From: Branchiostoma floridae
Lineage: Eukaryota; Chordata; Leptocardii; Amphioxiformes; Branchiostomatidae
Direction: 5' to 3'
Length of the DNA stretch: 64,000 nucleotides
NCBI RefSeq assembly: GCF_000003815.2
Contig: NC_049979.1
Span: 19,399,686-19,463,685 of the forward strand
Shown: positions 24,351-57,900 of the stretch, piece after piece
How the letters are laid out: every line of letters begins with the position of its first letter
How positions within the stretch are numbered: position 1 is the stretch's first letter
Translations under genes and position numbers: made by a program
The notes under the pieces: generated by a model
Told to the model about the DNA's origin: nothing
Databases searched by the model: none
Seen by the model: only the letters and a program-made list of their open reading frames with translations

Positions 24351-25748
24351 CTGCACACGTAACGTTATAGGCATAAAGTCTTGATCATATGGCCAGCTTC
24401 ATTATTCTACAGAAATGCAATAAAGCACCGTTTTCCGTTTCTATGAGCCAAGAGGACTTCAGAATCTGTAAATATTGTTGTTCACACACACATTGCAACT
24501 AAAAATCAGTTCAATCACCTCTCACCTATGTGTATGAACAATGAGGTGCAGACTATAAGTTGAATAACTATAAAGTAGTTTTACGATGATTTGCGAAACA
24601 ACCACTGCTGACGACATACATGTAGCATATTTGCCTGCATAGCCTGTGAGGGGTCACTCATCAAAGTTCATAGTTTAACGTCCTCACCTCTGCCGACTAC
24701 GAGTTAATATGTAACAAACGTTTCGAAGCACTATGTGATTTTGGGTCTAACATAAAACGCATTGTGCAACCCCTTTGGTAACATATTAGCCCAACCTGCA
24801 AACGCATATACGCAGGAACCAAGCAACACAATCGTGATCGGCTTTAGCCAGTCATTGTAATATCTCCACTAAAAGTAAAACAAGCCATTTTTGTTGGTAT
24901 GGCCTTCTCAGATATTCTTTGATAGTGCTCAAGCCATATGTGTAACAGCAAGGAGGTTATGGTAACAGTGACCAATATGCACACGCACGAATTTGCGTGC
25001 TGTCATGGGTTTTGGGTTGGACAATAATTTTATTAGCCGTCGATTGTGCCTAATGTTGCGACAAGGTATAATAGATTTCATAATAGGTTCCGGCGCGGCC
25101 TTTGGAGGATCGCAGACAAAGGCCTGGGCCGCTCGCGAGACGCCCGGCAAAATTGCAATTGGCAGTGTTTATAAATGACTAACTAATACTTACAGACAGT
25201 GGAATCCGGAACAACAAGATACAATCTACGTCTAGTTCATGCTCCGCCACGTTTCTTGTCAGAAGAGGTAATGGACTTCAGAGGTCCCCGAGTGAGTGAC
25301 AGCACTGTGACACCTGTATACGTGGTCAGAGTTCAGAGTTCACTGACTCCCCGGCCCGTCTTTCCCCTGCACCCCTGCGAATGGATAAAAATGTTGACCT
25401 CCCCATTTTCTATATACGTCGGAAGATAACGTTACTTAATAACAAAAATATTCAGAAGAATGGACGGCTCAGTCCATACTATGCTTCTTTGTAGGAGTGT
25501 GTATGCATGAAAACCTAGTAGAGATCAGTAGACACAATTTTTCACGGTATTGCGACAGTTTGTCCAAAAGTCGCCAGACGGCTCTTTTTACAGGTGTTGT
25601 CAGCTTTGGGGTCAAAGGGCGGCAGGAAGTTTGCTCATGACAAAGAAACGCTGTGAGCTGGAGCTGGCGGTATTTCCCCGCCTTCGCTATATTTGGCGAC
25701 CTCTGTGTCATCATTGAGGCACGTACACCGCCAAGGAAAGGTTCAAAG
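24351..25748. other. Boundary region between transporter array and receptor cluster; possible 5' exon of R1
   Basis: No coding gene seen; strand use switches here from minus to plus. A good donor (GTTCAAAG then GTGAGTCA) follows 25748 on the plus strand and a good acceptor (TTTCTTTTTCAG) ends at 26137. A 5' non-coding exon of R1 may therefore end at 25748. Confidence 0.4.
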
Positions 25749-26474: not shown

Positions 26475-29400
26475 ATGTCTCAAAGGAAAGGTGTTGTTCT
26501 TGTTCTTTTGTCATCTTGGACTTTGATTTGGAATCAAAGTTTTAGCACAGCGACTTTCAATGTCACAAGGACGGACCGAGACTACTTCTCTGTGCAGACG
26601 TTAGACGGGGAGCCCTGCCCAGATGGGGTGGATGATTTCTGTATGACGAGGGACGCGGAGGGAGCTCACGTGTTTACGGACGTTAACGGGACCAGGTCGT
26701 GTGCGTGTATGTGTAAGAACAGAGACACCTACATGTCGGATGTGAGGAGATGTTCCCGTGCTGTAGAAGGTGAGTGATTTAATTATTGTCTGTACTATAA
26801 GGTATACCTGAATGTTGATTAATGTTCAGGTTACTGACCTGCCCTGAGGTACTTTTTCACCACACTGATCATTTTTAGTATAGAGATGGTGACATGAACA
26901 GCAATAAACCAAATACAAGAAGATTTAGTGTAAGGCTACCACCGGTACGTAACGTAAGGGTAATGGCTCGTCACATTTGTCCTATGATTGTTTTTACAAC
27001 AGAACATTAAAAGCATAATTGAACTGCATTTCTATGGTTTCAAATGTGCTTTATTTTAATCCATCTGGTTCAAAATTCTTAATCCTGTACTACTAGTAGT
27101 ACATGTAGTAGTGAAGAAAGTTACCAGTAGGAACAGAATGTAACTTTCGCATGACACATGCTAAGCTTCACTTTCACTAAAAGTTTCAGATTCACTTTCA
27201 GATTCACTACTGCTCCTTCCAATTTACAATAAACAAAAAAACAAACAAACAAACAAACAATGAAAAATTCTCATTGCAGATAAAAATGTACTGACTTGCA
27301 TTTCTGTAATGCGGGGATAAAGAACAATAGGTGTATGTGACAAAAGTTTTGATTTGAAGCATTCCAGGTAACAGGAAAAAAGACATTTCTAGCCCAGCTT
27401 TGTAGTCTCCCTGGTATCTGACTGATGCCATTTCCCTCCCCAGACTGTAAGCTCCAGTTTGAGGTTGGGGATGGAGAAGAGATCTACATCATGAAGGACC
27501 CTCCAGACAGGCAGCAGCACAACTATGTCCTGGACTGGGACGAGGTGGACTGGACCAACGACGGCTACGGTCCGGGGAGGGACTGGACATGCTCAGTGTC
27601 TTCTCAGAGGTTTCTTGAAGACGGAAGGTGGAAGCCGTTCTCATGTCTTGGAGACGGTGTTCCAGATGAGTTTGTTAAGGTGACCAGACCTACACCTGGA
27701 AGGGCGTGGCTTCTTGTGGTGAGTCTTGAGATATTTGTTTGTACTAGTATGTACATATAGGTGTGTGGGGGGGTGGCAGTGTGTATTGATGTTTGCATGT
27801 GTGTATGTATGTGTTTATGCACGTGTGTGTGTTGGTGTGTGTGTGTGTGTGTGTGTTTGGGTATCCACGTGTATGTGTGTTTGTGAGACACTCTCAGCTT
27901 ATGGCTTGGTTGTTTACTTTAAGGCAAAATAATAAGGCAACATTAATAACGTTTTGTATGACACATTCCATTTTTTTCACAAGTACAACAAACTGTTATT
28001 CACTAACTGGACTAAACGGAAACTGTTTGATCTCACTCCACAGTCCTACGGAGTATCAAAGCTATAGGATTAAACTCAGAGGTGGTCCGGTCTCACTGTT
28101 TAGCAGAAAACACTGCTATTGTGTCACAGGGAAACCTGAATCCTCCACTGTTCAAATCATCTGCTAACTTCTCTCCTCCTACTGTATAACATGTAAAGGA
28201 CCAGTTTAGTTGAAATGCCATCCACACATCCTAGAAGGACTGTATTTCTTTCTATTTGTGTATCTACTGTTGTGAATAGGACTGTTTATAGTATAATTTT
28301 GCTTTTTTGGATAATGAAACTAATCCCTTTGACTCTCTATGTCAGTTCCAGTTTGGATCATACCATTCCCAGTTTGGGGGCCTGCTCATAAAGGTGGGAA
28401 TCAACTGCCACAACCCTGATCGGAGACGAGAAGAAAAAGACAACGGACAAGAAACGGATTATGAAGAGCTGGACACGACTTGTATCGTATTTAAGACCAG
28501 AGGAACGCGTCTTCGTAAGTGTAATTATAATGGTGTAATTTCATTTAATAGATCCGTCTATATTGGATTTAAACATATTCATATATATTTGAATGAAACA
28601 TTATGTTCACTTCTATATAATACTGAACTTGCTCCCCCCATTTCTTAAATGCAACTGTGTAAAAGAACTGCACAATTTTATGTTAGTTAAGGATGGCATA
28701 TGTCTTAATTTCATGTATCTCCAACAGCAAAAATGTTTTTCTGATAATTTTTTCTACAGATATCCCAGGTACCCCCTGTGTGACTGACCCCTCCCCCACA
28801 AGTAGACCCCCCACCCACAGTACTGTAACCAGAGAAGGCCCTGCGGTGACTGACAAGAGTTCACCTGTGTTTACTCCAACATTCCTGTACACAACAAGGA
28901 GGCAACGATCTCCGGCAACAGAAGAATCCACTGTGTCAAACACCACAGGTGAGCAGAAATCATACTCTGTATTCTTATTTTTCATTTCTTAAAGTAAGGA
29001 TACTATTTATTCTGCAAATACTACCATTCGAGTAGGAAGGCAAATATGTTAAGTAAATAGTCAAAGATAACTTTCAGTGACGTCCTGATGTCACAAATAT
29101 TTGATAATGCCCTCTAGTGATACCTTTATGAACTGTATGTTCATTCTACACTGGTATCCATTTCCTATACGGTATGAATTAGCCTGTATACAACCAAAGT
29201 AGTTAAGAATTCATTCCAATCTCTAAACAGTAAAAAGAAGTAGACGCTTCTAGCTCTTGTGATTGATTGTATATTGTATATTGTAAAAGCACAGATGCTT
29301 TCACAGTTTCAATGATTTTTATGAGGATTAGAAATATGTTGAAAGTAAGGCTTTACTTCAAATGATTTATTCCATACTTCCCAGTTTATTATATCGTATA

Positions 29401-31599
29401 GTATCCTATGAATATTTTGCTTTATTTTTCATCTATCTGATCTATTTTGCTATTAAGTACATGTAGAGGCCTAAATATTGTATACTTTTTACAGGAATGA
29501 TAATGACATCAGAAGATAGTAGTAACAACAGTGGGCTGATAGCTGGTACAGTGATAGGAGTTCTCCTGGCTGCTGTGTTGGCTCTGGGAATCCTCATCTT
29601 GTTTTATCGCAGGAAAAAATGGAAAAGGTGAGTCACAAGGTCTAATCCTGTACCAAGATCTTGACTTTTGTTTTCATGATTAGTGTCTTGTTTAATCTGC
29701 ATCAAACAAGAAAATATGCATAAAAGCATTAAAATTACAGAACATGTACAGTTTAAGCTTATATTGTTGTGTTTTTGTTACACATAAATTTTGCAGGTTT
29801 TCCAAACTGGATACAAGACAAAGTCACAACAGGGTAAGTTGTACCATCCAAAGTTTATTTTCCCCTCCCTCAAAACATGTAACTTTTCAGATTGCTACTA
29901 TCTGTACATTATTAACCATGAAGCCTCTTCACTGTAGTTGTAGGAGATTGGGACAGGATTGTGCGGTATTGTCCATCCAAAGCTAACATTACAATGTACA
30001 ATCAAAAGTGGCTTAAAAAGTTGCATTGATAATAATGTAGTTGATATAATTCCACTTGTGGGCTGAGCTGTAAAGTAACATCACAGTGACTTATAATTGA
30101 CCAACATTTAAAGATGACATCAAGTTCTTTTCTTTTGATTGAAGATTGTAACTTTCATGGTTCCTTTCCCAGATAAACACCAGTCGAGTGGAAAACCCCA
30201 GCTACGAGGACGCCATATTTCAAAATGGTCGCGCCAGCGTACTGTCGGAGGGACTCCTACACAGCGTGGAACACAACGATGATGAACAGAGTGAGGAGGG
30301 CAACGTGGAAAATGAAATTTACGAAGGGGTGGGTTACAGAAACACTTCATCATGTACTGCCGTAGGTTCCACTTGATTTACAGGCTAGCTCATTTCAAAA
30401 CATCCATTATGTTTGGACTTTTTGGAGTTTTTATCTAGGAAACTGATAAAGGATACATGCCTCTGAAAATAAATAAAAAGCCCTCTTGTTAGTCACTGAC
30501 AAAGAAAGCATTGATTTTAAGGACAACATTACTAATGTGAATACTGGTTTGATAAGTTTGTAAAATATTAGTTAGACAGAGTCAGGTCTGGACCTGAACC
30601 TGAACCTGAACCTCTGGACCTAAACCTGGACTTGTACACGATCAAGCCAAATTGACAACATATAACATGTTTAACAATTGTATATGTTATGCATTTGTTT
30701 CCCTATGTGCTATGTACATGTATTGTTTGAGTCACTTATCATTGAATTCATTGTATTGCTTGGAAAATTTTTAGAACCATTTCAGGAATGGAGTATTCTT
30801 TTGTTCCATGTTGTGGGTACATGTCAAAGACAAAACACCATGAAATTGTCAAACCCTGTCAAAATGTCAACCTCTGACCTGATTTGTTTTCCTCCAGGGT
30901 TTGCCTGACAACCCGTATGATGAACCCCTGGGTAGTCCTGACTCACAAATGTCAGAACAGGTACCGGTGCAGCCACTTGAGATCTCCGGTCCACAGATTT
31001 CACGTTTCAGCATCCCCAGAGAAGATGTGTACATTCCCATTGGAGGACAACTTAGTACCGTGTCTTCACATGTGCCGACACACCTGGACTTGCCTGTACC
31101 AGCGTATAGGGACGCTCCGAACAGCAATGGTTACCAGAGCTTGAACAGACCGTTAGTACAGACTGACCAATCGCCAAGCTCGCCGATTTATGCTACGCCA
31201 GACGTCGGCCATGTGTACACATCTCTAAGTCCTCCGTTACATAACCATGGTTACACTGAACCGACAGTTCCTCCGTACTTGCTACCAGACATTACCCATA
31301 ACCCGTCATCACAGAACCACGGTTATGATGAACCAAACATTGTTTCTCCGTACGCACTTCCTGACATCTCTGCACAGTTTGGTGATCCCAACCAGAGATC
31401 AGACTACCAGACACCCAAACCACAGAACCATTACGAAACCCTGGAAGATCCGGATGGATCCAGTTTGAATGGCAACACTCAAACCTCGCTTGACCATCCC
31501 TACACAGTGTTGCAAGGACCTGACTCGCCAGTGTGTGCTGCTTCAAATGCGGGGCCAACTTTCTCCCAAGCAGACATAGCATCACATTCGAGTCAGTAA
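26475..31599 (+). CDS. Type I membrane receptor R1, novel ectodomain, YxxP-rich tail
   Basis: Eight coding exons: 26475-26769, 27444-27718, 28346-28514, 28760-28948, 29495-29627, 29797-29833, 30173-30328, 30898-31599; all phases agree, 651 aa. Signal peptide about 1-25, then a small Cys-rich module (C..C..CACMC..C). Next comes the shared module in exons 2-3 (DWDEVDW, WTCSVSSQ, FLEDGRWK, SCLG, then GGLLIKVGINC and FKTRGT). After that: a Pro/Thr-rich stalk, a membrane helix at about 324-346, stop-transfer RRKKWK and a ~305-residue tail. The tail has NPSYEDAIF, ENEIYEG, seven YxxP and four YxxL motifs, a phosphotyrosine docking tail. I do not recognise the ectodomain family; R2 next door is a paralogue with the same intron phases. 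Ligand and pathway unknown; an immune or adhesion role is inference. Confidence 0.82.
27823..27856 (+). repeat. (TG)n microsatellite in R1 intron 2
   Basis: Nearly pure TG dinucleotide run inside a longer TG-rich tract (27760-27890), in the intron between R1 exons 2 and 3. Frames that cross it are low-complexity artefacts. Confidence 0.85.
30898..31599 (+). other. R1 last exon: tyrosine docking tail
   Basis: Codes for residues 419-651. YxxP motifs: YDEP (425), YATP (516), YTEP (537), YLLP (545), YDEP (561), YALP (570), YQTP (588). YxxL motifs: YQSL, YTSL, YETL, YTVL. Clustered pYxxP is the known recognition sequence of Crk-family SH2 domains, as in p130Cas. The YxxL pairs are too far apart for an ITAM and lack the -2 hydrophobic residue of an ITIM. 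Confidence 0.7.
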
Positions 31600-32921
31600 A
31601 ATGACTGCGCTTTGGCTGGACCAGATATTTATGAACCAATGCTATTGGACTAAGCTTTGACAAATAGAAAGATCTATTTTATGATGAAAGTACAAAGGCT
31701 AATGGTGCCTTTTTTGTTACATAGACAGAGATGCATTTATCTATGAGACAGCATAATGATCTTGTCGAATTCCAAAATGAGAAACTGCCAGTACCTGACA
31801 AATGTAAGATTTGGACAATATTATATTCCCAACATTCCAGATAAGTGTAATAGTACAGAAAGTTTATTGTTCATCTATTTACATTTCATGCTGGTGCCAC
31901 ATATGTAGAGTGATTGTTTCAAGGAAAGTTGAAATCCTATGACATGTAACTCATCATATAAGCTGAAAAGTTCTGTTATTAGTTCAGATGTTCTTCACTA
32001 GTCGTAAAATATGTAACCGTTAGTCGTATATTATTATGTTATCATGTTACAGTATATTTTTTCCGTAGATATGTTTTGGCATGTTGTTTTGTTTCAAGTA
32101 ATGTCAAGCATTTATTCCGGATCCAATAGGCATTATGAGACATATATAGAAGATATTTAAGTTATCAAGTATGTAATGTTATCTGTATTTATTTAACATT
32201 AAGTTAACAGTTATACAATATATATGTTACACTGTTGTATTGTTACAGTTATGTTTTGTTTGTCACTTGAGTAAACATTTTGAGCAATAAATGCAGTTAC
32301 ACGGATCAATTGTTAACGTCGTGTGAGGTTTGCGTAGCATTTTTACAACAACATTTTTATTGTGTGATGCATGATGCTACACTTGTTTGGTGTGACGCGC
32401 TTTAAACCTGTCTCGCTAGTCGGCGCTGCTGCACTATTGACACCTTTGTGTCAAAGGCTAACAAGCGGTGATTGACCCCATTCTTTTGTTGTGAGTGTGC
32501 ACGCAAGCCAGGTGATCGTGTTACTGTGGATGTCGCGCATTGGTACGGCTTAATTTAGCAGATTTCACACTTGTGATCTTTTGTTTAGTATTTTTGCAAG
32601 GTTTGAAGGCAGTTTACAACGCTGGATCATGGATTTTTAATCCGGACGGATGTTTGCCAGCCGGACACGTCATTTTGTGCGAGTTTACCGACACGGATGG
32701 CCGCCCGGGTGACTATGACAAGGCACTGGCTATGACGTAAAAGCGGACGGAGCTGGGTTTAGCAACATTCTTTTGGCAACAATAACAACTCTTTAGGTCT
32801 ACAAACCGACAAGGGATAAGTCTCAGACACTACTCAGTCGCGAAGTCCGCAGCACAAGCTTCTAAAACTGTGAAGAGTTAACTGTTTTGGGTCCCTGTAG
32901 TTAACGCTGGTGTGAAAGAGA
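31600..32921. other. R1 3' UTR, intergenic DNA and R2 5' UTR
   Basis: No separate gene accepted. The first ~700 bp look like the R1 3' UTR. A 66-codon frame at 32540-32740 begins with TTG, not ATG, and is not credible as a gene. The last part is the probable R2 promoter and 5' UTR. Confidence 0.5.
32286..32291 (+). terminator. Polyadenylation signal of R1
   Basis: AATAAA about 690 bp after the R1 stop codon, in A/T-rich sequence without other features. Plausible 3' end of the R1 mRNA. Confidence 0.45.
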
Positions 32922-35900
32922 ATGAGGGCTGTTGTTCTTCTGGTTACCGTACTGTTTCAAGTTGTCTTACGGACAGAAGGAGATTGGACTCCGGTCCTTA
33001 ACGTGACGAGGACCGGCAGAGAAGGCGACATCTTCACCGAGAGAACGGATATCTGTACAACGGCATGGAATGGTTACTGTACTGAGAGAAAGGCTAACCG
33101 TATCACCTGGAGAGAGCCAGGTGGCAGACAGGTGTGCATGTGCCAGTGTTACACCTGGTTCAACACATACCTGTCCGACGAGGATGAGTGTGAGAATGTT
33201 CCTTCAGATTCAGGTAAGTAAAGTTTACCATAAGGAGTATCTAAATGAAGTAACCTTGAAACGATAACATGAATAGAATAGAATTGAATGATCCACAAAT
33301 GAAAATGGAAAAACAGTTGACCACCAATCTTGTGTGTTGACTGTAACGTTATATTATGAATCACTTTTATTCTGGCATTGAGAACCATCCCAGTGTTTAA
33401 CGTTAACCCATTTTTGATAGACCAGGTCCAAGTAGAATTTAATTCTGACTAAAAGTAGAATATTGAACTAATGTTACATGTAACATCAAATTTCAAGCTA
33501 AAAGATCAATGAAGAAACAAAACACAACACAAAAATTCTATCTCAAAACAAGGCAATAAGAAATGGCAGAATTCATGCGATCTTGTCATTGTTGCTTGCT
33601 TTTAAATTCTGTTCCAGTCATACATAACAGATATATTGGGAATCACAGAAACGCACCCATGTGCAGACAGACAGTAAGAAAGATGTTTCTTTAACTTAGG
33701 ATAAATTAATCATCATATGTCTTTATTTGCCTGACTCCAGAATGTGAATGGTGGTTTGAAGATGAGGGACAGCAGGCGCTGTACACGGTCACACCTGGCA
33801 GTGGTCAAACCGGCCGGATAGACTGGGGGGACGAAGACTGGCCAGGGTCAGGGGTCACTCCCAACTCCTGCTCCATAGACTGGTCCTGCGATGTCACCTC
33901 GCAGACTTACCTGGAGGACGGAGATTGGAAGGATCTGTCGTGTCTTGGCGGAGATATTCCGGATGACATTTTTGTCTTGGACTACGAAGAAAATGGCAGA
34001 AAAAGAAACTGTCAGAGACACTGGTTTGTCTCGGTAAGTCATGATCGTACAATTATGAAAACATAAAGCACGATGCCTGTACCAATATATCTCAAATATA
34101 GGGGTGATTTCTGATATTATTACATCGATTATAACGACAGATACGGCTCCCAAAATCTCATCGATTCAAGCTTTTATCACACCCCACCAACACAACAAGT
34201 ATGAAACCAATCCATCCAGCCGTTCTTGAGTAATCATCTACACAGACAGAGACACATAACAGAAAATATAACCTCCATTCCATGACATTTCATGGAGGTA
34301 AAAAAGGACTAAATTCTTATCATCATCTACAATATTTTATAAGGATCAATAACTTCAGGTATCTTCTCAATCTCCAGATCACAGGTAAACAAGTATTCAA
34401 GACATTCTTGGAAAGGAATTGATAACATGTGGTGACTGGGTACAACTGTTAGAAACATCACAGCAAATAATGAAGAGACCTTATCTAAGGAAAGGGCTTA
34501 TATGGGCCCAAATGTATATGTTTTCTACCAATTTGAAAAGAATGTTAAGTGAGATAAACTACTGTAATTAAAGTTAAAGGTGTCACAGGAAATTGTATAG
34601 TCTACTTCCCAATGTATTCCCAAATTAAGTGATGTATAGAGTTATACTGGTTATAGTTCCCAACGTTTTTCTCTTGACCACCATTCTATCGAAATGCTCT
34701 CATCTGATTAAGTTTAATTCAATTTTGATGTAGAATATGCTAACAAAACCTAACCTGGTCCTATGGATGAAAAATCAAAGGTTGTGTCAACACAAGTTTT
34801 GTTTACTGTTTGTGCCAGTGTGTCAACAGGAAACAGGTGAAATGTTTGTTGTTGTTCCAGTGGGATCTTACGTATGACATCACACGGCTGGGAGGACTGG
34901 TGATACACCTGGACATCACCTGTTCACGACGCAGGTGGGGGAACAGACAGTACTCCAGGTCACAATGCCTCAGGTTCAAGACAGAAGGAACTCATCTTTG
35001 TGAGTATATGAAATGACATATTACATTCTATTAGTTATTAGAATTGTGACGACCTGTGGATAATGATAATGTTCTGAATGAGTGGATGAAGGTTAAGTGA
35101 TCCAGGTAATAATATACTTTAGTATGCCAAATAGCAGTTACTGAAGCAACAGGATATGGTTTTGGAAATGGTCAGATGTTTCAGATAGTCACTATCTTTC
35201 ATCAGCGACACCAAAAAGCAATCACTCAAGAAACTGTATCTGACAAAAACCATATCCAGTTCCTTGAGTTACTGCTTTTTGGGGTGTTTTGAATGCTTTA
35301 GTTCTATGAAAAAAACTATGAAAAAATTGAATCCCCTCCAAAATAATTGAATTTACGGAATATGATTAGAGATATCTTTACCTAATCTACAACTCACTGT
35401 ATTTGTTGTGAACAAAGTGTACAATTATTCTTCAAATAAATTATGCAGTTTTCTTGCAGCAACTTTGTCTTGATTCTACAAAACCCCTTCTGTTCACACA
35501 ACTCTTCTTTGAATGTGAACAACTGCCAGTATAACTACTCTTAAACCATGGCTTAAGACTCAAAATGACCTGGTCTGCCACGTTATTAATCTGTGTGTAA
35601 CCTTGTGTACTTCAGACACACCAGGCCGAGGCTGTACTCTCTACACACAGACCACACCCCCAGGGCAGGGCACCACACAAAGGAACCAGCACAGTGAGAT
35701 AATCTCTCTGGAATCTCTGTTAAAGTCTGCTTGTGGATCTAGATTATATATGTTGAACAAACCTTATTTTGTGTTGTTTGGGTTCAAAGACTTGTCAAAT
35801 AAAACCAACAAACACAATTTCTATACATTTGTAGTTATTAAAATAAATTTAAGTTAGTGTTTATTATGTAATAATTATTGTAATATAAGTAACTTAAGTT

Positions 35901-38471
35901 AGATCCTAACCTTTGCAGTGCTGTCCATGTGATGTCTATATTCTAGTTGTCATACAGCCGTGTTGTTTTATTACACAGACTGTATGCCTCTTTAATTTTA
36001 ATGTGTCCTCAAACAGCTGCAGGTGGTGTGACTGCAGGTGGTGCAGCTGCAGGAGGTGGTGTGACTGCAGGTGGTGCAGCTGCAGGAGGTGGTGTGACTG
36101 CAGGTGGTGTGACTGCAGGTAGTGCAACACCTGATGCAGGCATCACTGCAGCACCTGGAGTGGAGACAACACATGCTAACACAACCTCAGGAAATGGTGA
36201 TTATATTATATCATGCATGTATGTTTTGCTGCCCAGAATACACCCAGTGAAAACAAACTTTCAAATGTTACATTTGCTATACACTTGCACAAATTACGAA
36301 TGATGGGATTTCAGCTTTTAACTAATACCAGTGATAATTAGCTGTATGATAGCACTGTGTTATTAGTGTTAATAACCAATTTACCCCAATGTTTACAGTC
36401 ACATAATGCCTAGCCAATGACTAAACCACCTCACAAGCTCATTCTATGGTTTACTTGGTGGTTATGGGTCATCGGTCATATTGCAGTAAACTGCTTTGAG
36501 TAGGTCATCATTCGTATTCAATATATGATAGGGGGATGTGTTATCTCAGTTACTCAGTTATAAATACGTGGGTAACTTCCAACAAGTATTGTAGTCCGAC
36601 ATGATGAGTGTTCACATCTGTATCTCTATGTTCCCTTTGCCGCATTCGTATGCAGTTTGGCATGTCGTCTGTACGCAGTTGATGATGCATGATGATGCAT
36701 GTTTTTTTTTTTTTTTACAATTTTGATAATCAAGTTAAATGAAATATGAATTTTGTATGTGTTATGTTGCAGGTGACATGGGAATGAACACCGGGGGAGG
36801 TGGGAGGAACACAGGAGCTATCACAGGGGGCGTGGCAGTGGCCGTCATCGCTATTCTGGCCTTAGTGGGAGGGTTTGTTTTCTTCTGGAGAAGGAAACAT
36901 AAACAGAACACTGGGTAAGTGTAGTCTCCATGTTTCTCTCATGTAATTCTGCTGGCTGATTGAAAATTTCATTCTAGTATCAATTGCAGCTATATTTTGT
37001 GTATGTCTGAGTTTGTCTTTGCTGATTAAATCCCAAATAAACAGAGAAATTTGTTTCATGTATAGTACATATTACTGTTAGTAATATTTGTCATTTCTTT
37101 TTGCAGGAAATCTTCATCAGGAGGCACTCAGGTAATTATTTCAATTAATAGTATTCTATGTAGTCATACCCCCTCTTGACTGGTGTGAAAACTCCAGTCA
37201 ATGAATACCATATTGATGGATACCAAATTTCTCAATACTTAACACCTTTACAGCAAATACATGTATCTCAAAGATTCTTTTGTATTAAACTTTGGAAAAA
37301 AATCCAAGCTGTATCATCACACTTGTGATGATACTAGACTAAAGAGTGTGAGTGAGTGATAATTGTGCTAAAGGTAATGATATTAATTTTCTGTAATGCT
37401 TGTAGACAAAGGATTTTTTTTATAAATTCCATACAATGAAGATTGATGAAAGAAATTATAGATTTTAAAAGTTCTGTAAAGTTATAGCTGGTACAGTCAT
37501 TTAATGTAAGACACCAGCTTCTAGCAGACATGCTGACATTATACACAATGTCTTCCTTACCTAGGTAACAGTGCAGAACCCAGGATACCGTGTCCACATC
37601 TCAGCACCTCAGATCAACAGGATTAGTTCAGATTCATCAGGATATGTTGATAACTCTGGGTATGTGGGATATGATACAGGAGGCAGCGTGGAAAATGCCA
37701 TCTACGAGGGGGTAAGTCTATTTTTTGTTTTGATGATAGCTATAGTGGCAAAGTACTCGTTCAGGATTGTCATAATTATTATTTGTTCATATGAATAGCT
37801 GACATGTTCACTTAACAAGTGCTATATCTTTTCCCAGCTGCCTTACCTCAAAGTTAGAGCAAATTTGGTTCAAAGGCATTAAAGACCAAGTTAGATCAAA
37901 TGAGAGTACTCCCCTATAGACATTTTATATTTATATGTTGATATGCTAAGTTTAACTGTAGACATAAGATCAATTTGTGCTACCTCCGGAATGTAGATGG
38001 GTTACGGTTAAAAGTTAATGGGATTCATTGCTACTTTGTTTAGCTCTCCCTTATTTGTCTGCCAATTATTCAAAGTGGCTGTGAGTTTAGAATATTGTCA
38101 CTTTTTTTCACCAGCAACAACCAGAGTACGCATACACAGACGTGGTTGTTCCCTCCGCACCCAAACACGATGCTGCTTACCAACCTTACCAGCCCTACGA
38201 CCAGGTGCCGCACGAAAACCTGTACAGCTCACCGGAGGCAGACAACGTCTATGCACAGTTGGATGGCACCCAGGAACAGCAAGTCCCATCAGCGCCGCCG
38301 TTACCGTTCGCAGAATCCTCAGGGACAAACCACTATACATCGCTGATGGGGGATCAGGAGAACTTGTACCAGGATCTGGGACCACAGTATGAAGAACTTC
38401 CTGCATACAGTAGAGGGACAGACTCAGATCCTTCCATAGACAAATCAAAGTCACCTCATGGTTTTCTATGA
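32922..38471 (+). CDS. Type I membrane receptor R2, novel ectodomain, ITAM tail
   Basis: Nine coding exons: 32922-33213, 33741-34033, 34861-34999, 35616-35693, 36017-36196, 36773-36914, 37107-37131, 37565-37711, 38115-38471; phases agree, 550 aa. Signal peptide about 1-20, then a Cys-rich N-terminal module like that of R1 (NVTRT, CMCQC, TYLSD). The shared module follows ([36 protein letters not shown], then [11 protein letters not shown] and CLRFKTEGT). Then a stalk with a Gly/Ala/Val/Thr minisatellite, a membrane helix at about 343-365 and a ~185-residue tail. The tail has NPGYRV, GYVDNSGYVGY, ENAIYEG, YTDV, YSSP, YAQL and a YxxL-x7-YxxL ITAM. Exon order and phases match R1, so the two genes are tandem duplicates. 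Ligand and role unknown. Confidence 0.83.
34108..34300. repeat. Interspersed repeat fragment in R2 intron 2
   Basis: Contains ACACAACAAGTATGAAACCAAT..CCGTTCTTGAG and ends in a palindrome around ACATTTCATGGAGGT. The same sequence occurs in opposite orientation at about 53805-53920 in R3. Dispersed, non-coding, family unknown. Confidence 0.55.
36017..36122 (+). repeat. Coding minisatellite in R2 stalk
   Basis: GCAGGTGGTGTGACT and GCAGGTGGTGCAGCT units alternate within exon 5, giving a stalk of repeated VTAGG / AAAGGG blocks. Unit lengths are multiples of three, so copy number can change without breaking the frame. The repeat starts at the splice acceptor. Confidence 0.8.
38334..38378 (+). other. 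ITAM in R2 tail
   Basis: Encodes YTSL, seven residues (MGDQENL), then YQDL: Tyr506 and Tyr517 of R2. This is the YxxL-x6-8-YxxL consensus of immunoreceptor activation motifs, which bind tandem SH2 kinases of the Syk/ZAP-70 type when doubly phosphorylated. A YEEL follows. The acidic residue often found before the first Tyr is absent. Confidence 0.7.
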
Positions 38472-40072
38472 GACAAACTGAACACTGAGTTGCTGAGTCA
38501 CTGCAATTTGCCCATACATGTATTTGTTTGGTGCTGGGTCACTGCAAATCTCACTAATTTTGTTGAATTCAATATATAAGATTTATCAACTCTTAAATAA
38601 TTCCATCAGGTATCCTCGGACTGCCATATTAAAAAAAGACTGCCATATTATTGAGGCCTCAATTTTCAAGAATGTCTTAAATACCTGGATATATCTTAAG
38701 TGTGCACATCTCCAGGATAACAGATGCTGTATTATCATCAAATTGAATGAAATTCACCATTTTTTTTAGAAATATGGCATCATTGGATTTATTAGGAGTG
38801 TCATTCTCAATCTAGACATAAAATATAGAGCAAACAAGCAAATCCTTTCCGTGAAGGCAAACATAATAAAACTACTATGCTGCTATTTCAACTTGTTCAT
38901 CCTGCAGATGTTTTGTTTTGTTTTTGTTTATATAACGTTATATATGCAAGAATAGTAATACAACAGAACTGTTTTTTGCCTCTGACTTCCTCGTAGCCAT
39001 GGTAGTTGGGCCTAAGAGCACTGCAAAATGTATGGATTTGAACATTTAACTTTTATTTCATGTTCTTTTAAATGTTTTGTATATGTATAGCGTTGAACAT
39101 TTGACTTTTATTTCATGTTCATTTTATTGTTTTGTATAAGGTAGATTTCACTAACTTATGTCAAATTGTTGTATATATTTAGGTATCTGACACGACATTC
39201 CTATTTTTACTGAGGTACGGGTATGTTAATGTGATTTTCCATCATTGTTTACTTTTTATGAATTCTATAGCCACATGATGTTGTCTACAATATCCACTAG
39301 TTAATGAAATATTTGTAATAAGAAATGACTGCCATATAGTAGAAATTTGCTTCAAAATAATTGCTAACTTTGACAGCCATGGTTAATTGCAGAGTCTAAT
39401 TAATTGTGGTAATTTGCTTCTCATTTAGCCTTGCAAGTAATGTTACAGATACAGATTCTTCATACAAAATATAGTGTAGCACAGCCTGTCAATTGTATGA
39501 AGTGAACAGAAGATTAAATGGTATTGTGTTCCCCTTTTCATCATCTACGTGTATGCATAAGTTTTCTTGGTTGTTTCAAGTTTTGACATTGTCTTATAAC
39601 TGAGCATGAGAACCTTAAATGACCCTAACAATGCCCCTCCCCCTCAGTGCACCGGTAATATATGCAAGGCATAACTCACTGGGGATTTAGTATGTTGTTG
39701 TTTGTTACCTGCAGTGTCATTTTTCTAATTGGTGTCGACAGTTGAATGACTCAGACAGCAGGGTCATATTTGAGGGCAGTCCGCCTCAGGCTGTACCCCT
39801 TAAGGACACAGGTATGTTGTTGGACAGGTGAGGCTGACGTCACAATGACGCGGGGTTGTGGGTACGTGAGAAAACAGGAGAGGAACTTCCTCATAGAACT
39901 TCCCGTTTTGACTCAAGACAGACGCGTTGTGAACAGGGGTTTGGCTTATTTTCTTAACCAGGAAACGCATGCAACATTTCTTTGTAAGGAAACTTGGAAC
40001 GAAGTTAGACGTCCTAGACTGTCCAAACAGCGAGGGTTTACGACTGGAAGTCAAGATTTGATAAAGTTGAAC
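38472..40072. other. R2 3' flank and R3 upstream region
   Basis: No gene accepted. A ~55-bp direct tandem duplication lies at about 39045-39140 (GAACATTT(A/G)ACTTTTATTTC repeated). The R3 start codon has an in-frame upstream extension to 39746 that lacks signal-peptide character and is probably UTR. Confidence 0.45.
38875..38880 (+). terminator. Possible polyadenylation signal of R2
   Basis: AATAAA about 400 bp after the R2 stop codon. Other A/T-rich candidates exist nearby, so this is tentative. Confidence 0.3.
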
Positions 40073-41615
40073 ATGACACCTCCCACAGGCTTCTTCGTAC
40101 TTGTTGTAGCAATGATCTTCCTCTGCAGCTGGCTGCGCTCCTGCAGCAGTATGGTACAAGCCAGTGAATCATATACGACATGGCCCACTCCTGTCGATCA
40201 TGAGGACTCGACTGCCACTTCATTTTACGGCACTGCAGTTGAAGCTACTGCCATTGGAACAGACAGCAGCGACGTCGACGACAATGGTATGACAGGTACC
40301 TGTCTACATTGCGCATAGCTTTACAAACTACAATTAACGTTGTCTAACTCTCCAAATAGGATACGTGTTACAAATTTTAAAGGGGGTATAAAACTAAATG
40401 TATTACAACCGTGCGTTTATGACACAGTTAAAAACCCCCGAGTGGGGTCCATTTGGATCCCAGGCGTAAATTTTGAAGTACCATTTGAACATTTTTGATC
40501 TGAAGAAAAATTCCTTCCGTGTACATTTGTCATTCAATATCTCCTATACCCTCTCCCAAGTTTTTATGGAGATTGTTACAAAACTGTGGAAACTATAAAG
40601 TAAAGTCTGTGTTCAGTCCGTCTGGGGTCCATTGGTAACACTAATTTGGCATTGTTGAAAATTATTCATATCGGGCTACAAAAACGGTGATATAAAACAG
40701 TGGTGTAACTACAATAATATTGAGATCTACTTACAATTGGTTGATATTGACCTTTGCTTGTTCAGTAGCTTAACCATGTAGGTTATTAGGCAGACTACAC
40801 CTCAGCACTGACCACACTGAAGCTCCACTCCTTGGCAGAACGCCGTACGAATCTCTGTTTGAGTTTTGCCAAAAAAACTGCTCAACTCTGAATTCAGAAC
40901 ATGGCTTCCTCCACTCAGAGCCAGATATCCGGACGTCAGACACGGAATTCCAACAAACTGAACACTCCTATCTGCCATGCAAAGCGTAAAAAAACTCTGC
41001 TATTTCCTATATACTGTAATGAACAAATGCGAATGAACACTCTGTTATGTAGACCTATAGATCTGAATGTACCGTTAACTAAGTCTTCTCAGTACGGATG
41101 ACGACATATGTAGCATGTTTCTGTAAATATTGATGTCAATGTTATCATCGTCCGTTCAGATTTCTAGCCTACTTAATGCGTCCAGAATCCTAAATTTTAT
41201 GTTATGTAAGCAGGGTTTTAACAATTCTTTTTTAACCACACAGCCATCTAAGTTTTGAAGTAATTCTCCAGTAATGTGTGTGTACGTATGTAAATACCAT
41301 AATTCAGACCTCGTTGTTTCAAGTCTGCGAGGTGGTATAAAGAATAAAGATTTAAAAGATTTAAAAGAATCAAACTTCTTCTGAAACGCTAAGTTCTTGG
41401 TCTGATACTGTCCAGCAGGGACTCCAATTGGTTAATTATGAAAGATTCTATTAGAAAATAGCAGAAATGTAGCAATTAAACCTGAAAAAAACATTGTTAC
41501 AACCAATATTGTCGATTTTCGTCAAAACAGCCTGTCAACAACCGGTTGCCGTGGCAACAAGAAAAATGGAAAATTTTCCAAACTCAAAATCACACACAGA
41601 CACACACACACAAAG

Positions 41616-41653
<38 letters not shown>

Positions 41654-42928
41654 CATGATCTTCTTGAGCAAGGCAATAAGAGATGGCAGACTTGAACCCT
41701 TGCATTTGTTGCATGGTCTAAATCATATATATTCCGGGAAATCGCAGAAACGCGCCCGTGGCTGACATACACATATCATTAGTACAAATATCATTCACTG
41801 CCATTGGGCGAAGTAATCCTTGAATGTCTTTATTTGACCGACTCCAGAATGTGAATGGTGGTTTGAAGATGAGGGACAGCAGGCGCTGTACACGGTCACA
41901 CCTGGCGCCGGTCTAACCAGCCGGATAGACTGGGGGGACGAAGACTGGCCGGGTTTAGGCCGGTTCACTCCAAACTACTGTCTCGTCACCTGGTCCTGCG
42001 ATGTCACTTCCCAAACATACCTGGAGAACGGAGAGTGGAAGGATATGTCGTGTCTTGGAGGAGATATTCCGGACAACGTTTTTGTCTTGGACTACGAAGA
42101 AAATAGATGGTTGACACTCGCAAGCTGTCGGAGACACTGGTTTGTCTCCGTAAGTGTTGATTGTATATCATTGACTCTCATAATTCCACCTTGAACTGAA
42201 ATGGGATGATGATGTGAAATGGGCAAAAAAAGTGAATGCAAAGAGATCTACGAAATACAGGATAATAACCCTTCAGGCATGTTTAGATATCCAGAACAGG
42301 TGTTCAAGACATTGTTGGGAAGGAATGGATAACATGGTACCCGGCAGAATTATGAGAGTTTATGTTGTGCTACTATTTCTACTTTAATTTCTACGTGAAT
42401 ACGAATAAAGAATTGTGCAGTCTGAAGCCATCACATGCCATGATGTAACTTTTTACTGTGGTCAAACATCACAGTAAATGAAGAGAGGTAACCGGTATCT
42501 AATTAAAAGGGAAGGGGATAAGGGCACAAATGTATGTGTTTGTCACCAATTTCAAAAGAATGTTAAGTATGAGTAGTATGGGAGTATGAGGTCTCCGAAC
42601 TCTTGCTATACTATGTAATAAAAGTTCCAAGCTCCCTTTTTTCTCTTGCCACCGCCCAACCAAAGTGCCCTCAACTAATCATTTAGATTCAAACGTCTTT
42701 GATTCAATGTAGAATTTCTAACAAAACATTAAGCCTGGGCCTATGGGTGAATCAACTATTGTGTCAACTATTGTTTGTTCCAGTGGGATGTTACGTATGA
42801 CGTCACACGGCTAGAAGGACTGGTCATACACCTGGACATCACCTGTACACGGCGCAGGTGGGTGAACGGCGCAGTGCAGTACACCAGGTCACAATGTCTC
42901 AGGTTCAAGACAGAAGAAACTCATTTTT
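40073..42928 (+). other. R3 5' exons: signal peptide and shared novel module
   Basis: Exon 1 (40073-40286) encodes a hydrophobic leader ([17 protein letters not shown]) and a Ser/Thr/Asp-rich linker, not the Cys-rich module of R1/R2 exon 1. Exons 2 and 3 encode [44 protein letters not shown], then GGL-like [11 protein letters not shown] and CLRFKTEET, nearly the same as R2. Phases 1-0 and 0-1 equal those of R1/R2 exons 2-3. Confidence 0.8.
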
Positions 42929-45900: not shown

Positions 45901-48900
45901 CTCCCTCCACTTTGTTTTCCATGTAGCTGATGGCGGCTGGTCTGACTGGAGCGCATGGTCTGTCTGCAGCGTGACGTGTGGAGTCGGTACGCAGACTCGG
46001 GACCGAAGCTGCACCAATCCGGCACCAGGTAACGGCGGGGCGGTGTGTGATGGAGATACTGAGGAGACACAAGTGTGCGACTCGGAAGTTTCCTGTCCAG
46101 GTAACTCTAAGTTCTATTGTTGTATTAAATTTTGTATTTCTGAGGCCCCCTTTCCACTTGACGGCGCTCTCACCGCGCTCTCGCTGTGATGGAAAATTGG
46201 CCAGAGCGCGGTGAGAGCGCCGCGACGCCAGAAAAAGCTGCTCTAGTGGAATCTCTCGAGCTCCGGCGACCCCAGCGCGCTCTCACCGCAACGAAAACCT
46301 CAAATGTCAGCATCTTTTTATGAGCTAGCAAAGGTTCGAAAGATTACTCAACGAATTTCAGAGATAAAGAACGAATATTTTGACGCATAGTGTATTTTGG
46401 TATCTTTAAAGTCATCCTTTTACGTCTTACATAACATTCAAAGCATAAAATCCAGGCTGTGAACAAATCCAATGTTGGTCACTGTACAGTCACTCAGACT
46501 GAAATATACACGTTTGTCTTGCTGCTTTTTTCTTAAATTTGTCATGTAGCTTGTTCACCATAAATCTATTATCATGCCACGTCATAAGTGTAAATCATAC
46601 AACACTGAAACTTGAAAATAGGACTTCAATAATATAAATGAACAGATGAAGACGAAGAAAACCTAATGTCAGTATGTTGAAATTCAAAAAGAAGTTGAGA
46701 AATTATAAACCTTTGTTTCTTTAAACCTTGGTCATTACATCTCAGTTTGTTTTATTGTACATTTTGGACATTTCTCCAGGTTCTGTCTGTGTCAAATATA
46801 CTTCTTCACAAACCGCGGTTGAGAGCGCAGAGAGCGCGCAGTGAGAGCGCCGTCCTAGCTAAATTGGTATCATAAACCACTGTTGAGAGCTATTGCGCTC
46901 TCACCGCGCTTGCTGTGCGCTCTGTTGGCGCTCACGGCGCTCTCTCTGCGCTCATCGTTGGATCGCCGTCCACGGCGCTCTCACGGCGACTGTTTTGAGC
47001 AGGTTCAAAACAGTCGCGGAGGTCATGGCGACCATGGCGACCATAGCGCTCCCACCACGCTCTCTGTGCGCTCCCATGGCGATCCCACCGCGCTCTCACC
47101 GCGCTCTTCCAAATTTGAGGTCGCAGAGAGAGCGCCGTGAGAGCGCCGTCCCAGTGGAAAGGGGGTAGGTATGAGGAATCATCTTTGAGTTGTTAAAAGT
47201 ATCAATGGAAAAGGCAAAGACACACAATACGCACGATACACATCCCTTTGGGACCAAATAATCTTTCTACTGAATGTTTTTATTAGACTTCTCAAATTAA
47301 TCTGCATTGAAAAATTGTGAGATCTTGAAGTAAACATACTGAGTCTATTAAAGACATTCATGACATTTCATATGCATGTTGCTCTATTTAACCTAAATTC
47401 TTGACGACACAGATCAAAATTCTTCCCTATAGTAGTCCTCTTGAAAAGGTGTAACTTTGTTTTGTTCCAGACTAAGTTTACACTGTTTCCCATGTAGTTG
47501 ACGGCGGCTGGTCTGAGTGGAGCGCATGGTCTGGCTGTAGCGTGACGTGTGGAGTCGGTACGCAGACTCGGGACCGAAGCTGCACCAATCCGGCACCAGC
47601 TAACGGCGGGGCGGTGTGTGAAGGAGATACTGAGGAGACACAAGTGTGCGACTCGGGAGTTTCCTGTCCAGGTAACTCTATGCTCTATCGTTGTAATAAT
47701 ATTTCTAAGATGTCATCTTTAACTCATCTTGATTTTCAATGGAAAACTATTGATATTTAACACAAATAAGAATTCTCCCCCATAGTAGTCCTCTTGAAAA
47801 GCTGTAGTTTAGTTTGTTCCAGACTACCTTGACTCCGTTTCCCATGTAGTTGACGGCGGCTGGTCTGAGTGGAGCCCATTGTCTGTCTGCAGCGTGACGT
47901 GTGGAGTCGGTACGCAGACTCGGGACCGAAGCTGCACCAATCCGGCACCAGCTAACGGCGGGGCGGTGTGTGAAGGAGATACTGAGGAGACACAAGTGTG
48001 CGACTCGGGAGTTTCCTGTCCAGGTAACTCTATGCTCTATCGTTGTAATTAACTCCCCAATTCGGGCGTGGAGCTCGGGGAATTTCAAACTGCCCTTCTT
48101 CTATCTCTGTCAAGAATGATTCAGCGTTCGAATCTCTGAACACTGCTTGTTGTTTGAAGGGCGCTGATTGGTTGTTCGAAAAGAACTTCGGTTTGATGCT
48201 TGGCCCCTGTAACGTTGGGCCAAATCAAAATATATCGGCCGTCACGTCCGGCCTAAATTTTTATTTTTGTTTCACAAAAATGAATTTATGCCTACCATCT
48301 CGGCCGTTATAGTTATTCAGAAAGAACCCATAATCACTCCACACTAAATGTTTCTTGGTGGGAATACCAGCAACTTTTATTGACTGGCATAAAGCATAAC
48401 AAATACGAGAAAAACTTTACAAACCAAAATGGAAATCATTTTGCACAAATTGTCATGCCTGACATATACGATCATTACACTTATTGTGTATCTGAAAATG
48501 TTTTACAAACGTTGTAATATTATAACCAACAATCAATCACGATTTTTCCACCCGCCAATGGAGCGATAGCGACGAAACCCCCCCCCCCAAAGCGAGCCGC
48601 TAGGCGATTTAGAAAGTCCAGTAAGGTAGGCATGAACAAAATGATGATCCCTGGAAACGTGACTATCAGATTCTGATACCCCTTTCCACGATACTGTGCT
48701 GTTTCTCTCATAATGAACAAATAAATGCCATACAATAAGCACTCATAAACACCGGATAGTGAAATACCCCTCCTGATTTACCTTGTTTCATTTATGCACA
48801 ATGTCAAAATTTTGAAATCCACTCTGTGGTACTTCTGTCGTCACTGTTAAACAGTAGTCTTAGGTTACGATACAACGATTCAAAATAACCATCTATGACA

Positions 48901-54900: not shown

Positions 54901-57900
54901 GTCCTTATATGTAGGTCAACAGCATATAACTCGAGAAGCTATGTATGGATTTTAATGATATTTGGTATTTGAGTAGCGGTTGCGGAAAGGAAGGTCGTGT
55001 TCCAAAATGGTTGGCGTAGCCTTTTTCCGTCAGGACGGTTTTGGGCCGAACGTGTGCGTCCGCTTTCTCGTAAACAGTATAACTCGAGGACCCTTGAATG
55101 GATCCTGATAATATTTGGCAGGTGGGTAGGGGCCAGGAAAACGAAAGTCAAGTTCGATAATGGGCCCCCTAGCGGCTCCGTAAGGTACTGCAGCAAAAAT
55201 TGTAATTTTGACATCTCGTGTTCTAGACATGCTGTCGTCATGATTTTTAAGTGGTAGATAGCCCTTGGAGCAGAGAGTAAGTGCTGTGAGTTTGGACCCC
55301 CTAGCGGCATTTTTAGAACTGCAGGCACCAATTTCCTTTCAAACTTTGGACGAGAATAACTCGAGAACGTGTTGACGGATCATCATGATTTTTGGTATGT
55401 TTTTCTAAGCTACAGACGTTAGAAATCATGAAAATCTATAATTCTTCCTTGATGTATCCTCTTCGGAATTTTTTTTTTACGAAAATGCCCTACACTTCCA
55501 AAAGTGGAGACTAGCGGGCCCTGACGTATGTCACTTATTTCCGAGCACAAGGGCTATCCGATAGTAGCATCCAAAAATCGTAACCAGAGCTTGTTCACGA
55601 GGTACCAAAACCAGAAGTTTCCCTGCAAGGGAATTCGCTAGATAAGCCCCAATGCTACAGATTTCTAGTTTNNNNNNNNNNNNNNNNNNNNNNNNNNNNN
55701 NNNNNNNNNNNNNNNNNNNNNNNNNNNNNNNNNNNNNNNNNNNNNNNNNNNNNNNNNNNNNNNNNNNNNNNNNNNNNNNNNNNNNNNNNNNNNNNNNNNN
55801 NNNNNNNNNNNNNNNNNNNNNNNNNNNNNNNNNNNNNNNNNNNNNNNNNNNNNNNNNNNNNNNNNNNNNNNNNNNNNNNNNNNNNNNNNNNNNNNNNNNN
55901 NNNNNNNNNNNNNNNNNNNNNNNNNNNNNNNNNNNNNNNNNNNNNNNNNNNNNNNNNNNNNNNNNNNNNNNNNNNNNNNNNNNNNNNNNNNNNATTTAAG
56001 TACATGCATAGTAACAGATGTCATAAACCACCATATATGGCAGAGCCATGAAGAGATCCATATTCATCCGTAAATTCTCTTTCACTTTATTTTTACTGCA
56101 TGAAGAGGTACACTCGGCCAGTTTGCTTGAATGTTATGCAACATCTTGAATATAATGTCCTTGGTTAATCTTGATAAAAAGGGAATCTTCGAGGTAGTAG
56201 TTATGTTAAAAAAACATGTACATGTAGAAGAGGGGTGTGGCTTGTTTATTGAAATGGGGTTGTCCTACCAAGGCGGGGTTTCCTTACATCCTCATGACCT
56301 TCGTCTTGCGAGTCAGAGGGCTCCTCTTGTCACGCCAATCGTCTATTACTTACTGTTAATCAGATACTAAGAACACGAACATTTTATTTATCTGCATGGA
56401 AGGTGATGTTTGATAGGTGAAACACATTTTAGTACTTCATACATCTCAAAATGAACACGTATTGTTATATTTAGCCATCCAGAACTGCACGGAAAATGAC
56501 AGGCATCACTGTACATCGCCGTGTGTCCGTGACCTTGAATATCAGGTAACTCAAACACTGATACTGTTCTAGCTACGTAGGGGACTGCAGCTGCATGCGT
56601 TTTGTTCGTGATCCATACTCAACTTTGTTCCTACAGTTAGATTCTATAAAGAGGAATGGTTTCGAATTTGACCTGTCATTCCCGGCATGACGCAACAACA
56701 AACATGGATGGGTGGCAAGGTAGTCATTTCGTTATGGTTGACTTAGAAATTTCTTGCTCATTGGAAAAGGCAATTAACATACTACTACTAGTTTTCCCAC
56801 TCTACGCAGATGAAAATAAGTAGCTATGTCAGGTTATAGATATCGTCTTAAATGTACCGTAAAGCTGGACCACATTATCATAAACTACAGTCAAACCTGT
56901 ATTAGCGGTCACTATTGCAAAGTGACCACTGGTCATTGCGGTCACTTTTTGTCGGTTCCTTGGATTTTTTCCATCGACCTAAGCATTAGGAAAAAGTCTA
57001 TATCGGCCATCTGTCCAACGCGCCCACGGCCACACGATTTCCGGGACCATAGATGCAGAAACAGTCCCTATTGTGATCATACAGTGGCCGTGTGTCACCC
57101 TGCGCCGGGTTTGAAATCGTAGTTTGCGAGAATTTGGAGTTCCTGACAGGGTCATTTTGGCGGTAGCGGAAGGTACGCGTGCCTGAACATTAGAACTCAA
57201 GTCTTTGTCGGCGAATTTACCAATATTGCGCATGGCAATAACAATCATTTTCGGTAGATTTGACTTTGGCAGGGTCAGTTAAATTTTGAGACGATCGAGA
57301 CAATGACAATGTTACTTGGTAAGAAAGATTAGTGGGTACTGAAATCATGTGTACATTTTTGCGTATGGTCCAATGATCAACATTTTTTCTATAGTGGCCA
57401 CCTGTTTATAGTAGCCACATTCCTCCTGTCCCTTGAGTGGCCGCTATAGACAGGTTTGACTGTATGTGTTTATGCCTATTGCAGCTTGAATGCGGACTTA
57501 ACCAGGCGGATTACCTGTCTCGTGTAGCAAAGTGTCTGGGTAATGTGACAGAAAAAATATACGGCGGCGATGTCATCAGCAGTATCCGGCTACTCGGCCG
57601 TCTGACGGATTGTCAAGAACGTCGATTCAACAATGAGTCACAGCAAATAACGAAAGAAGATGCCGTCAGGTTTGCAAAGGTTAGTTAAAGAAAAGTTATG
57701 GATTGTGTTTATCTAAATTGATATCATTAAAACATATGAAAACATTTCACCTACATTAACCGCAATATGTTGTCCATCTTCCTAGCTTCAGGGTTCCCAG
57801 ACAATGCAGCAGCANNNNNNNNNNNNNNNNNNNNNNNNNNNNNNNNNNNNNNNNNNNNNNNNNNNNNNNNNNNNNNNNNNNNNNNNNNNNNNNNNNNNNN

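Follow-up and report, generated by a model that had tools for sequence, protein, structure and literature searches.

How a single extracellular domain came to be carried both by receptors that cross the membrane once and by receptors that cross it seven times is the question raised by a 64,000-nucleotide stretch of the Branchiostoma floridae genome (contig NC_049979.1, here C1, positions 19399686-19463685; this whole stretch is called the window, and positions without the prefix C1 are counted from its first letter). Two type I (single-pass) receptor genes, R1 and R2, and one adhesion G-protein-coupled receptor (aGPCR) gene, R3, lie there on the plus strand, and a preliminary description proposed that they share an extracellular module matching no named domain and that this sharing suggests related ligands read out by different pathways. 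The present analysis partly supports this description, which overlooked that the exon before the R2 module contains a Sha_B_N domain (PF23328, Shavenoid isoform B N-terminal) and that the R2 and R3 modules are near-copies of each other. A search of the genome (513.4 Mb, 431 contigs) found nine copies of the module in seven genes, all within a single cluster of ~235 kb. With somewhat more confidence than doubt, we propose that the module is a mobile phase-1 domain which comes from Shavenoid-like type I receptors and is shared among clustered receptors that signal through a tail motif.

The module is encoded by two exons, A and B, located at 27444..27718 and 28346..28514 in R1, at 33741..34033 and 34861..34999 in R2, and at 41848..42149 and 42784..42928 in R3 (all delimited by AG/GT borders, open frame and alignment). 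When spliced, these pairs yield modules of 147, 143, and 148 amino acids, respectively, that are open across the join. Each pair has AG acceptors and GT donors and, as described previously, the outer borders are in phase 1 and the inner intron is in phase 0 (1-0, 0-1) in all three. An exon A with a remainder of 2 followed by an exon B with a remainder of 1 is found in all nine copies, and an AG acceptor precedes exon A in eight of them, the exception being M5, whose exon A is continuous with a linker and whose exon B donor is uncertain (for copies other than R1-R3 the exon borders were chosen by hand). Phase 1 at both ends allows a domain to enter between phase-1 exons without a frameshift, which is the classical condition for exon shuffling. 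All the sequence motifs named earlier are present in the three window copies, with the correction that the spacing between the DW pairs is three residues instead of two. Residues C1, C49, G60, W62, C118, and C133 (R2 numbering) are invariant in the nine aligned copies, and, the R2/R3 pair apart, the copies are 26-40% identical to the R2 module.

The relatedness of individual copies was assessed with leave-one-out profiles (the left-out row had been part of the original alignment) and 2,000 shuffles each. The spliced R1 module scored 66.0 bits versus 8.6 for the best shuffle (among 1,815 reported), spliced M8 scored 50.5 bits versus 9.0 (among 1,932 reported), and spliced M9 scored 19.1 bits (E 3.5e-4) versus 6.3 (among 1,298 reported). 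Because 66.0 bits is far above the shuffles, the likeness of the R1 module is beyond chance and, together with the open frames, the AG/GT borders and the remainders of 2 then 1, this confirms that the three exon pairs encode one module. Taken separately against the R1-less profile, R1 exon A gives an E-value of 2.2e-12 and exon B of just 0.0071.

At the usual thresholds, the module has no home in Pfam-A or among PDB sequences, and the earlier statement that it corresponds to no named domain holds for these two collections. A Pfam-A scan of the nine members gave one match in total (VASt for one member, E 0.052), and the module profile found nothing better than E 0.6 among PDB sequences. Single queries against PDB gave a best E-value of 0.014 for the R1 module (a RusA nuclease, over 30 residues) and of 1.4 for the R2 module, neither match being an extracellular domain; such weak single-query matches involve cytosolic enzymes that are unrelated or cover a short stretch. 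We infer that the module is a compact extracellular domain that contains disulphides, both the fold and the disulphides being predicted. There is a nearly even chance that it is a divergent version of a known extracellular fold (e.g., a beta-sandwich such as CUB, MAM, or jelly-roll) and is new in sequence only: conserved cysteines and a two-exon 1-1 organization are usual in such domains, and a structure prediction for exon A alone (three sequences) gave a meaningless model with a mean predicted local distance difference test score (pLDDT) of 35.5, whereas the Pfam and PDB results listed above count against this possibility.

Each of the four type I genes of the cluster carries one copy of the module (R1, R2, R8, whose copy is M8, and the M9 gene, the latter two being located outside the window), while three aGPCR genes carry five copies (one in R3, two in the M4/M5 gene and two in the M6/M7 gene). 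The sharing of the module by single-pass and seven-transmembrane (7TM) receptors is thus strengthened by two more aGPCR genes with two copies each. On C1, exon A starts at 19515774 in M4, 19516908 in M5, 19534332 in M6, 19538340 in M7, and 19591920 in M8; the diverged ninth copy, M9, lies on the minus strand at C1:19359866-19358559 and was reached via a genome-wide Sha_B_N search. In whole-genome tblastn, the matches of the R2 module were confined to C1:19427206-19592107, where it hit 12 places, and the R1 module matched 8 places, every one inside the cluster; a genome search with M7 gave 16 places, 10 in the cluster and 6 elsewhere at E 0.12 or worse. Among the best candidates scored with the R2, R1, M7, and M9 queries, nothing better than E 0.12 was found in the genome beyond the cluster. 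In bacterial and archaeal genomes, queries with exon A of the three window copies gave 173 pattern matches and zero relatives. Three further aGPCR sets in the cluster (near C1:19472k, 19492k, and 19507k) are without a module copy above the profile threshold. A match at C1:19509340 (E 0.02), within the aGPCR near 19507k, was set aside as chance.

All four type I genes contain a signal-peptide exon, the module, a transmembrane (TM) helix and a tyrosine-rich tail (signal peptides and helices were identified by eye, except for the M9 helix, which was chosen by hydropathy). In R1, exon 1 (26475..26769, phase 1 donor) encodes the signal peptide and a Cys-rich N-terminal half; the TM exon (29495..29627, borders by eye) lies downstream of the module, as do a tail exon with VENPSY and VENEIYEG, the latter at 30305-30328 (30173..30328, borders by eye), and a last exon with the tyrosine-rich tail (30899..31599, start by eye). 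R2 is built in the same way from exon 1 with the signal peptide and Sha_B_N (32922..33213, phase 1 donor), a TM exon (36773..36917, borders approximate), a tail exon with VQNPGY and VENAIYEG, the latter at 37688-37711 (37566..37711, borders approximate), and a last exon with the tyrosine-rich tail (38115..38471, start approximate). Exon 1 passes the Pfam cut-off for Sha_B_N (24.4 bits) in R2 (43.7), M9 (33.9), and, narrowly, R8 (25.3); a genome-wide search for the family placed R2 and M9 above the cut-off and missed R8. Exon 1 of R1 resembles that of R8 (E 3.8e-4), and exon 1 of R2 additionally matches BPTI_nem below the cut-off. Sha_B_N is thus above the cut-off in three of the four type I genes, which makes it probable that the module forms the second half of an ectodomain that is Shavenoid-like. 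In the M9 gene, the tail is found 4 kb past the TM exon and was assigned by its likeness to the R2 tail; between the M9 TM exon and this presumed tail exon, a long open reading frame resembling a transposon endonuclease/reverse transcriptase (by eye) is present on the minus strand (C1:19356431-19355001).

The domain order predicted for R3 from reading frame and exon order is signal peptide, module, six TSP1 domains, GAIN, GPS, and 7TM. Its signal-peptide-like exon (40073..40286; an alternative end at 40295 leaves the phase unchanged) ends in phase 1, the module runs from phase 1 to phase 1, and the first TSP1 exon (45927..46100) joins in frame with it. Five more TSP1 exons start near 47498, 47850, 52190, 52542, and 52894 and are followed by GAIN (57485..58656; exons 57485-57682 and 58321-58656, separated by a run of N), GPS (58800..59181; exons 58800-58844 and 59068-59181), the 7TM exons (7tm_2; 59463..62231, scored to about helix 3, the remainder by eye), a first tail exon in phase 0 (62537..62656), and a last exon (63217..63381) with VENTIYEG (63301-63324) and VDNVIYEG (63346-63369). 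With exons joined by eye, GAIN (34.0 bits), GPS (60.0), and 7tm_2 (117.3) all score above the Pfam cut-offs, as does TSP_1. The module is located upstream of GPS and TM exons in all three aGPCR genes. The M4/M5 and M6/M7 genes have two modules and Ser/Thr/Pro-rich linkers (by eye), then GAIN, GPS, and TM exons (by tblastn to R3); in the M4/M5 gene, HRM (17.5 bits) and GAIN (15.5 bits) are each below the Pfam cut-off, and GPS and the first TM helix were recognized only by tblastn to R3. The signal-peptide-like exons of R3 and of the M4/M5 and M6/M7 genes contain no Sha_B_N at E<=10 (exon limits by eye), and that of R3 has no Pfam match.

Some further features of the R3 gene may be mentioned here. 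Five of its six TSP1 exons form two tandem runs at 47498-53069 with a period of 352 bases and an insert of ~4 kb between the runs, and these tandem exons are 70.7-91.4% identical in protein to the first TSP1 exon. The sequence aactccccaattcgggcgtggagctcgggg is present near 48051 and near 50075, as if flanking a repeat element within the TSP1 array. Runs of N at 55672-55993 (between TSP1 and GAIN) and at 57815-57914 (between the GAIN exons) may conceal exons.

Some receptors of the two classes also have a tail motif in common. The motif V[DE]NxIYEG is present in the tails of R1, R2, and R8 and, twice, in that of R3, where the last exon continues the frame of the phase-0 tail exon before it and the stop codon comes just past the second motif. 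As a DNA pattern, the motif has 7 exact matches in the genome, all within C1:19429990-19594911, compared to 0 for the reversed pattern and to a chance expectation of ~0.4 genome-wide (arithmetic with equal bases). Each of the four type I module genes has hydrophobic-x-NPxY in its tail, and these account for four of the nine six-frame matches in 263 kb. A hydrophobic residue at -5, Asn at -3, and Tyr at 0 make up the docking pattern of phosphotyrosine-binding (PTB) domains, and a Tyr that is preceded by Ile and has acidic residues nearby is suitable for Src-type kinases. The former pattern (hydrophobic-x-N-x-x-Y) is present in the R1, R2, R3, and R8 tails, and PTB binding is predicted for them. 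The proposal that single-pass and 7TM receptors use different pathways is weakened because the R3 tail bears, twice, the motif of the R1, R2, and R8 tails; no such motif was seen, however, in the M4/M5 and M6/M7 aGPCRs, where an intron-split motif would escape detection, so that a common tail readout is suggested for R1, R2, R3, and R8 only.

The remaining two genomic matches of the motif are in minus-strand tails at C1:19556203 and C1:19569965, with three VDNxIY repeats each. Around them, lectin-type domains, TM-like helices and VDNxIY-repeat tails are present on the minus strand at C1:19566500-19555500 and C1:19580500-19569900. WSC and F5/8-type domains (19565-19562k) and a SUEL lectin domain (19572k) pass the Pfam cut-offs there, one more WSC-like stretch is below the cut-off, and the TM-like helices are at 19557k and 19577k (by eye), the SUEL domain coming after the 19577k helix.

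As for the history of the module, identity between the R2 and R3 copies is 80% at the protein level and 84-85% over the exon-containing DNA blocks, and two pieces of their introns (108 and 42 bases) can still be aligned at 76 and 88%. This similarity, which extends into the introns, means that the two copies result from a single duplication and are not two independent witnesses; independence was therefore rejected for this pair. Synonymous divergence between the two (dS) is 0.25 and nonsynonymous divergence (dN) is 0.13, a ratio of ~0.50 over 143 codons, which, with length changes of whole codons, supports coding use, not strong constraint. In the module tree, the support is 94/99 for R2+R3, 94/92 for M4+M6, and 91/90 for M5+M7, and M9 is a long branch. 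The pairing of M4 with M6 and of M5 with M7 implies that the tandem module pair predates the split of these two aGPCRs. The aGPCR copies require 2 label changes in the tree and form a single group in 0% of 200 bootstrap trees; since they are not one group, two transfers of the module to aGPCRs are favoured, not proved.

Other explanations of the shared module have to be considered. It is quite possible, if a little short of probable, that the sharing is simply the product of duplication among neighbouring genes and that no ligand is common to the receptors, each of which has one of its own today. The 26-40% identity to R2 outside the R2/R3 pair and the R2/R3 ratio of 0.5 would be expected in this case; the residues kept in all nine copies argue against it, though they may be structural only. 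We consider it rather doubtful that the cluster is a combinatorial recognition locus, in which one set of ectodomain modules and one set of tyrosine tails would be dealt among single-pass Shavenoid-like receptors, lectin-type receptors, and aGPCRs; a single class of ligand would then be read by way of G proteins as well as of a shared PTB/SH2 adaptor, in a paired system of innate or self-recognition. It is improbable that the R3 module is a stranded piece of a duplicated R2 gene, left between R2 and the aGPCR and unspliced to the latter: the near-copy relation, intron pieces included, and the 3 kb gap between the module and the first TSP1 exon are in its favour, but the module frame is intact with whole-codon length changes, the signal-peptide-like and TSP1 exons fit in phase, the exon before the module has no Sha_B_N and hence is not simply R2 exon 1 copied along, and two other, far more diverged aGPCR genes carry the module in the equivalent position, making chance stranding less likely.

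According to the explanation that we prefer, i.e., a mobile phase-1 domain, the module would have originated as the second ectodomain half of Shavenoid-like type I receptors, with an ancestral layout of signal peptide, Sha_B_N, module, stalk, one TM helix, and tyrosine tail. Local duplication and exon shuffling would have moved it, probably twice, onto neighbouring aGPCRs: one transfer would have placed it in R3 with an R2-like gene as the donor, and the other would have reached the ancestor of the M4/M5 and M6/M7 aGPCR genes, in which the module is now tandem. Most likely, the module would serve in recognition, at the outer tip of the receptor or close to it, and its ligand would be a related surface or matrix molecule in every carrier. 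In type I receptors, the ligand would cluster the protein, tail tyrosines would be phosphorylated, and PTB/SH2 adaptors would dock; in R3, the module could exert a pull on GAIN/GPS that sets off the tethered agonist, and the same adaptors would dock on the tail. R1, R2, R8, and R3 would then signal at least partly via V[DE]NxIYEG, whose sequence is compatible with a PTB docking site and a Src-type kinase site, and R3 would add G-protein signalling.

Several observations weigh against this explanation. M9 joins the family weakly (exon B alone has an E-value of 0.035 and exon A is not listed), and a genome search with M9 finds its own two exons, one chance match, and no other copy, so that its inclusion depends on the profile, on an intron layout identical to that of the other copies, and on the preceding Sha_B_N exon. 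Exon 1 of R1 has no match to Sha_B_N or any other Pfam family at E<=10. The exon A structure model is meaningless, and the R2/R3 dN/dS ratio indicates only moderate constraint. The joins of the module to TSP1 and to the other aGPCRs were judged by frame and order alone. The M4/M5 and M6/M7 aGPCRs show no tail motif, and the two minus-strand motif tails have no module nearby, which means that motif and module are not strictly coupled. Finally, no branch of the tree is starred by the rule of the tool, starred branches force one change only and so leave room for a single origin, and equally few changes are reached in 52 of 500 label shuffles.

These results define an extracellular domain that has no name yet, show a clear history of exon shuffling for it, and tie it to the Shavenoid family. 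R2 and R3 represent a natural pair: one crosses the membrane once and the other seven times, and they have a near-identical module and a tail motif in common, which makes it testable whether an exchange of ectodomains retains the ligand and alters the pathway. Elsewhere in the window, exons on the minus strand at 22428-24398 resemble a membrane carrier of the monocarboxylate-transporter type (by eye).

Among known systems, the CED-1/Draper/MEGF10 engulfment receptors have hydrophobic-x-NPxY and further tyrosines, as do the four type I tails described here, whose ectodomains, unlike those of the engulfment receptors, contain the module and, in three of the four genes, Sha_B_N. BAI/ADGRB receptors carry TSP1 repeats before GAIN, as R3 does, but in R3 the module comes first and V[DE]NxIYEG is at the end, and the likeness is one of domain order. 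Group VII (BAI/ADGRB) is reported as missing in amphioxus in the 2008 survey of amphioxus GPCRs (Nordstrom et al. 2008, PMC2246102). This survey describes aGPCRs that have GPS and 7TM together with a variety of new, shuffled N-terminal domains identified by Pfam, such as Somatomedin B, Kringle, C-type lectin, SRCR, CUB, and others; as the survey relied on Pfam, it had no means of listing a domain that Pfam lacks. R3 has GPS, 7TM, and shuffled N-terminal domains in common with these aGPCRs and adds GAIN. The literature searched contained no mention of PF23328, of shavenoid isoform B, or of amphioxus with shavenoid, and one paper (PMC9375228) confines sha to insects and arthropods. The Sha_B_N family itself differs from the module: it has 62 positions and is matched inside exon 1 of R2, R8, and M9, ahead of the module, into which it leads straight.

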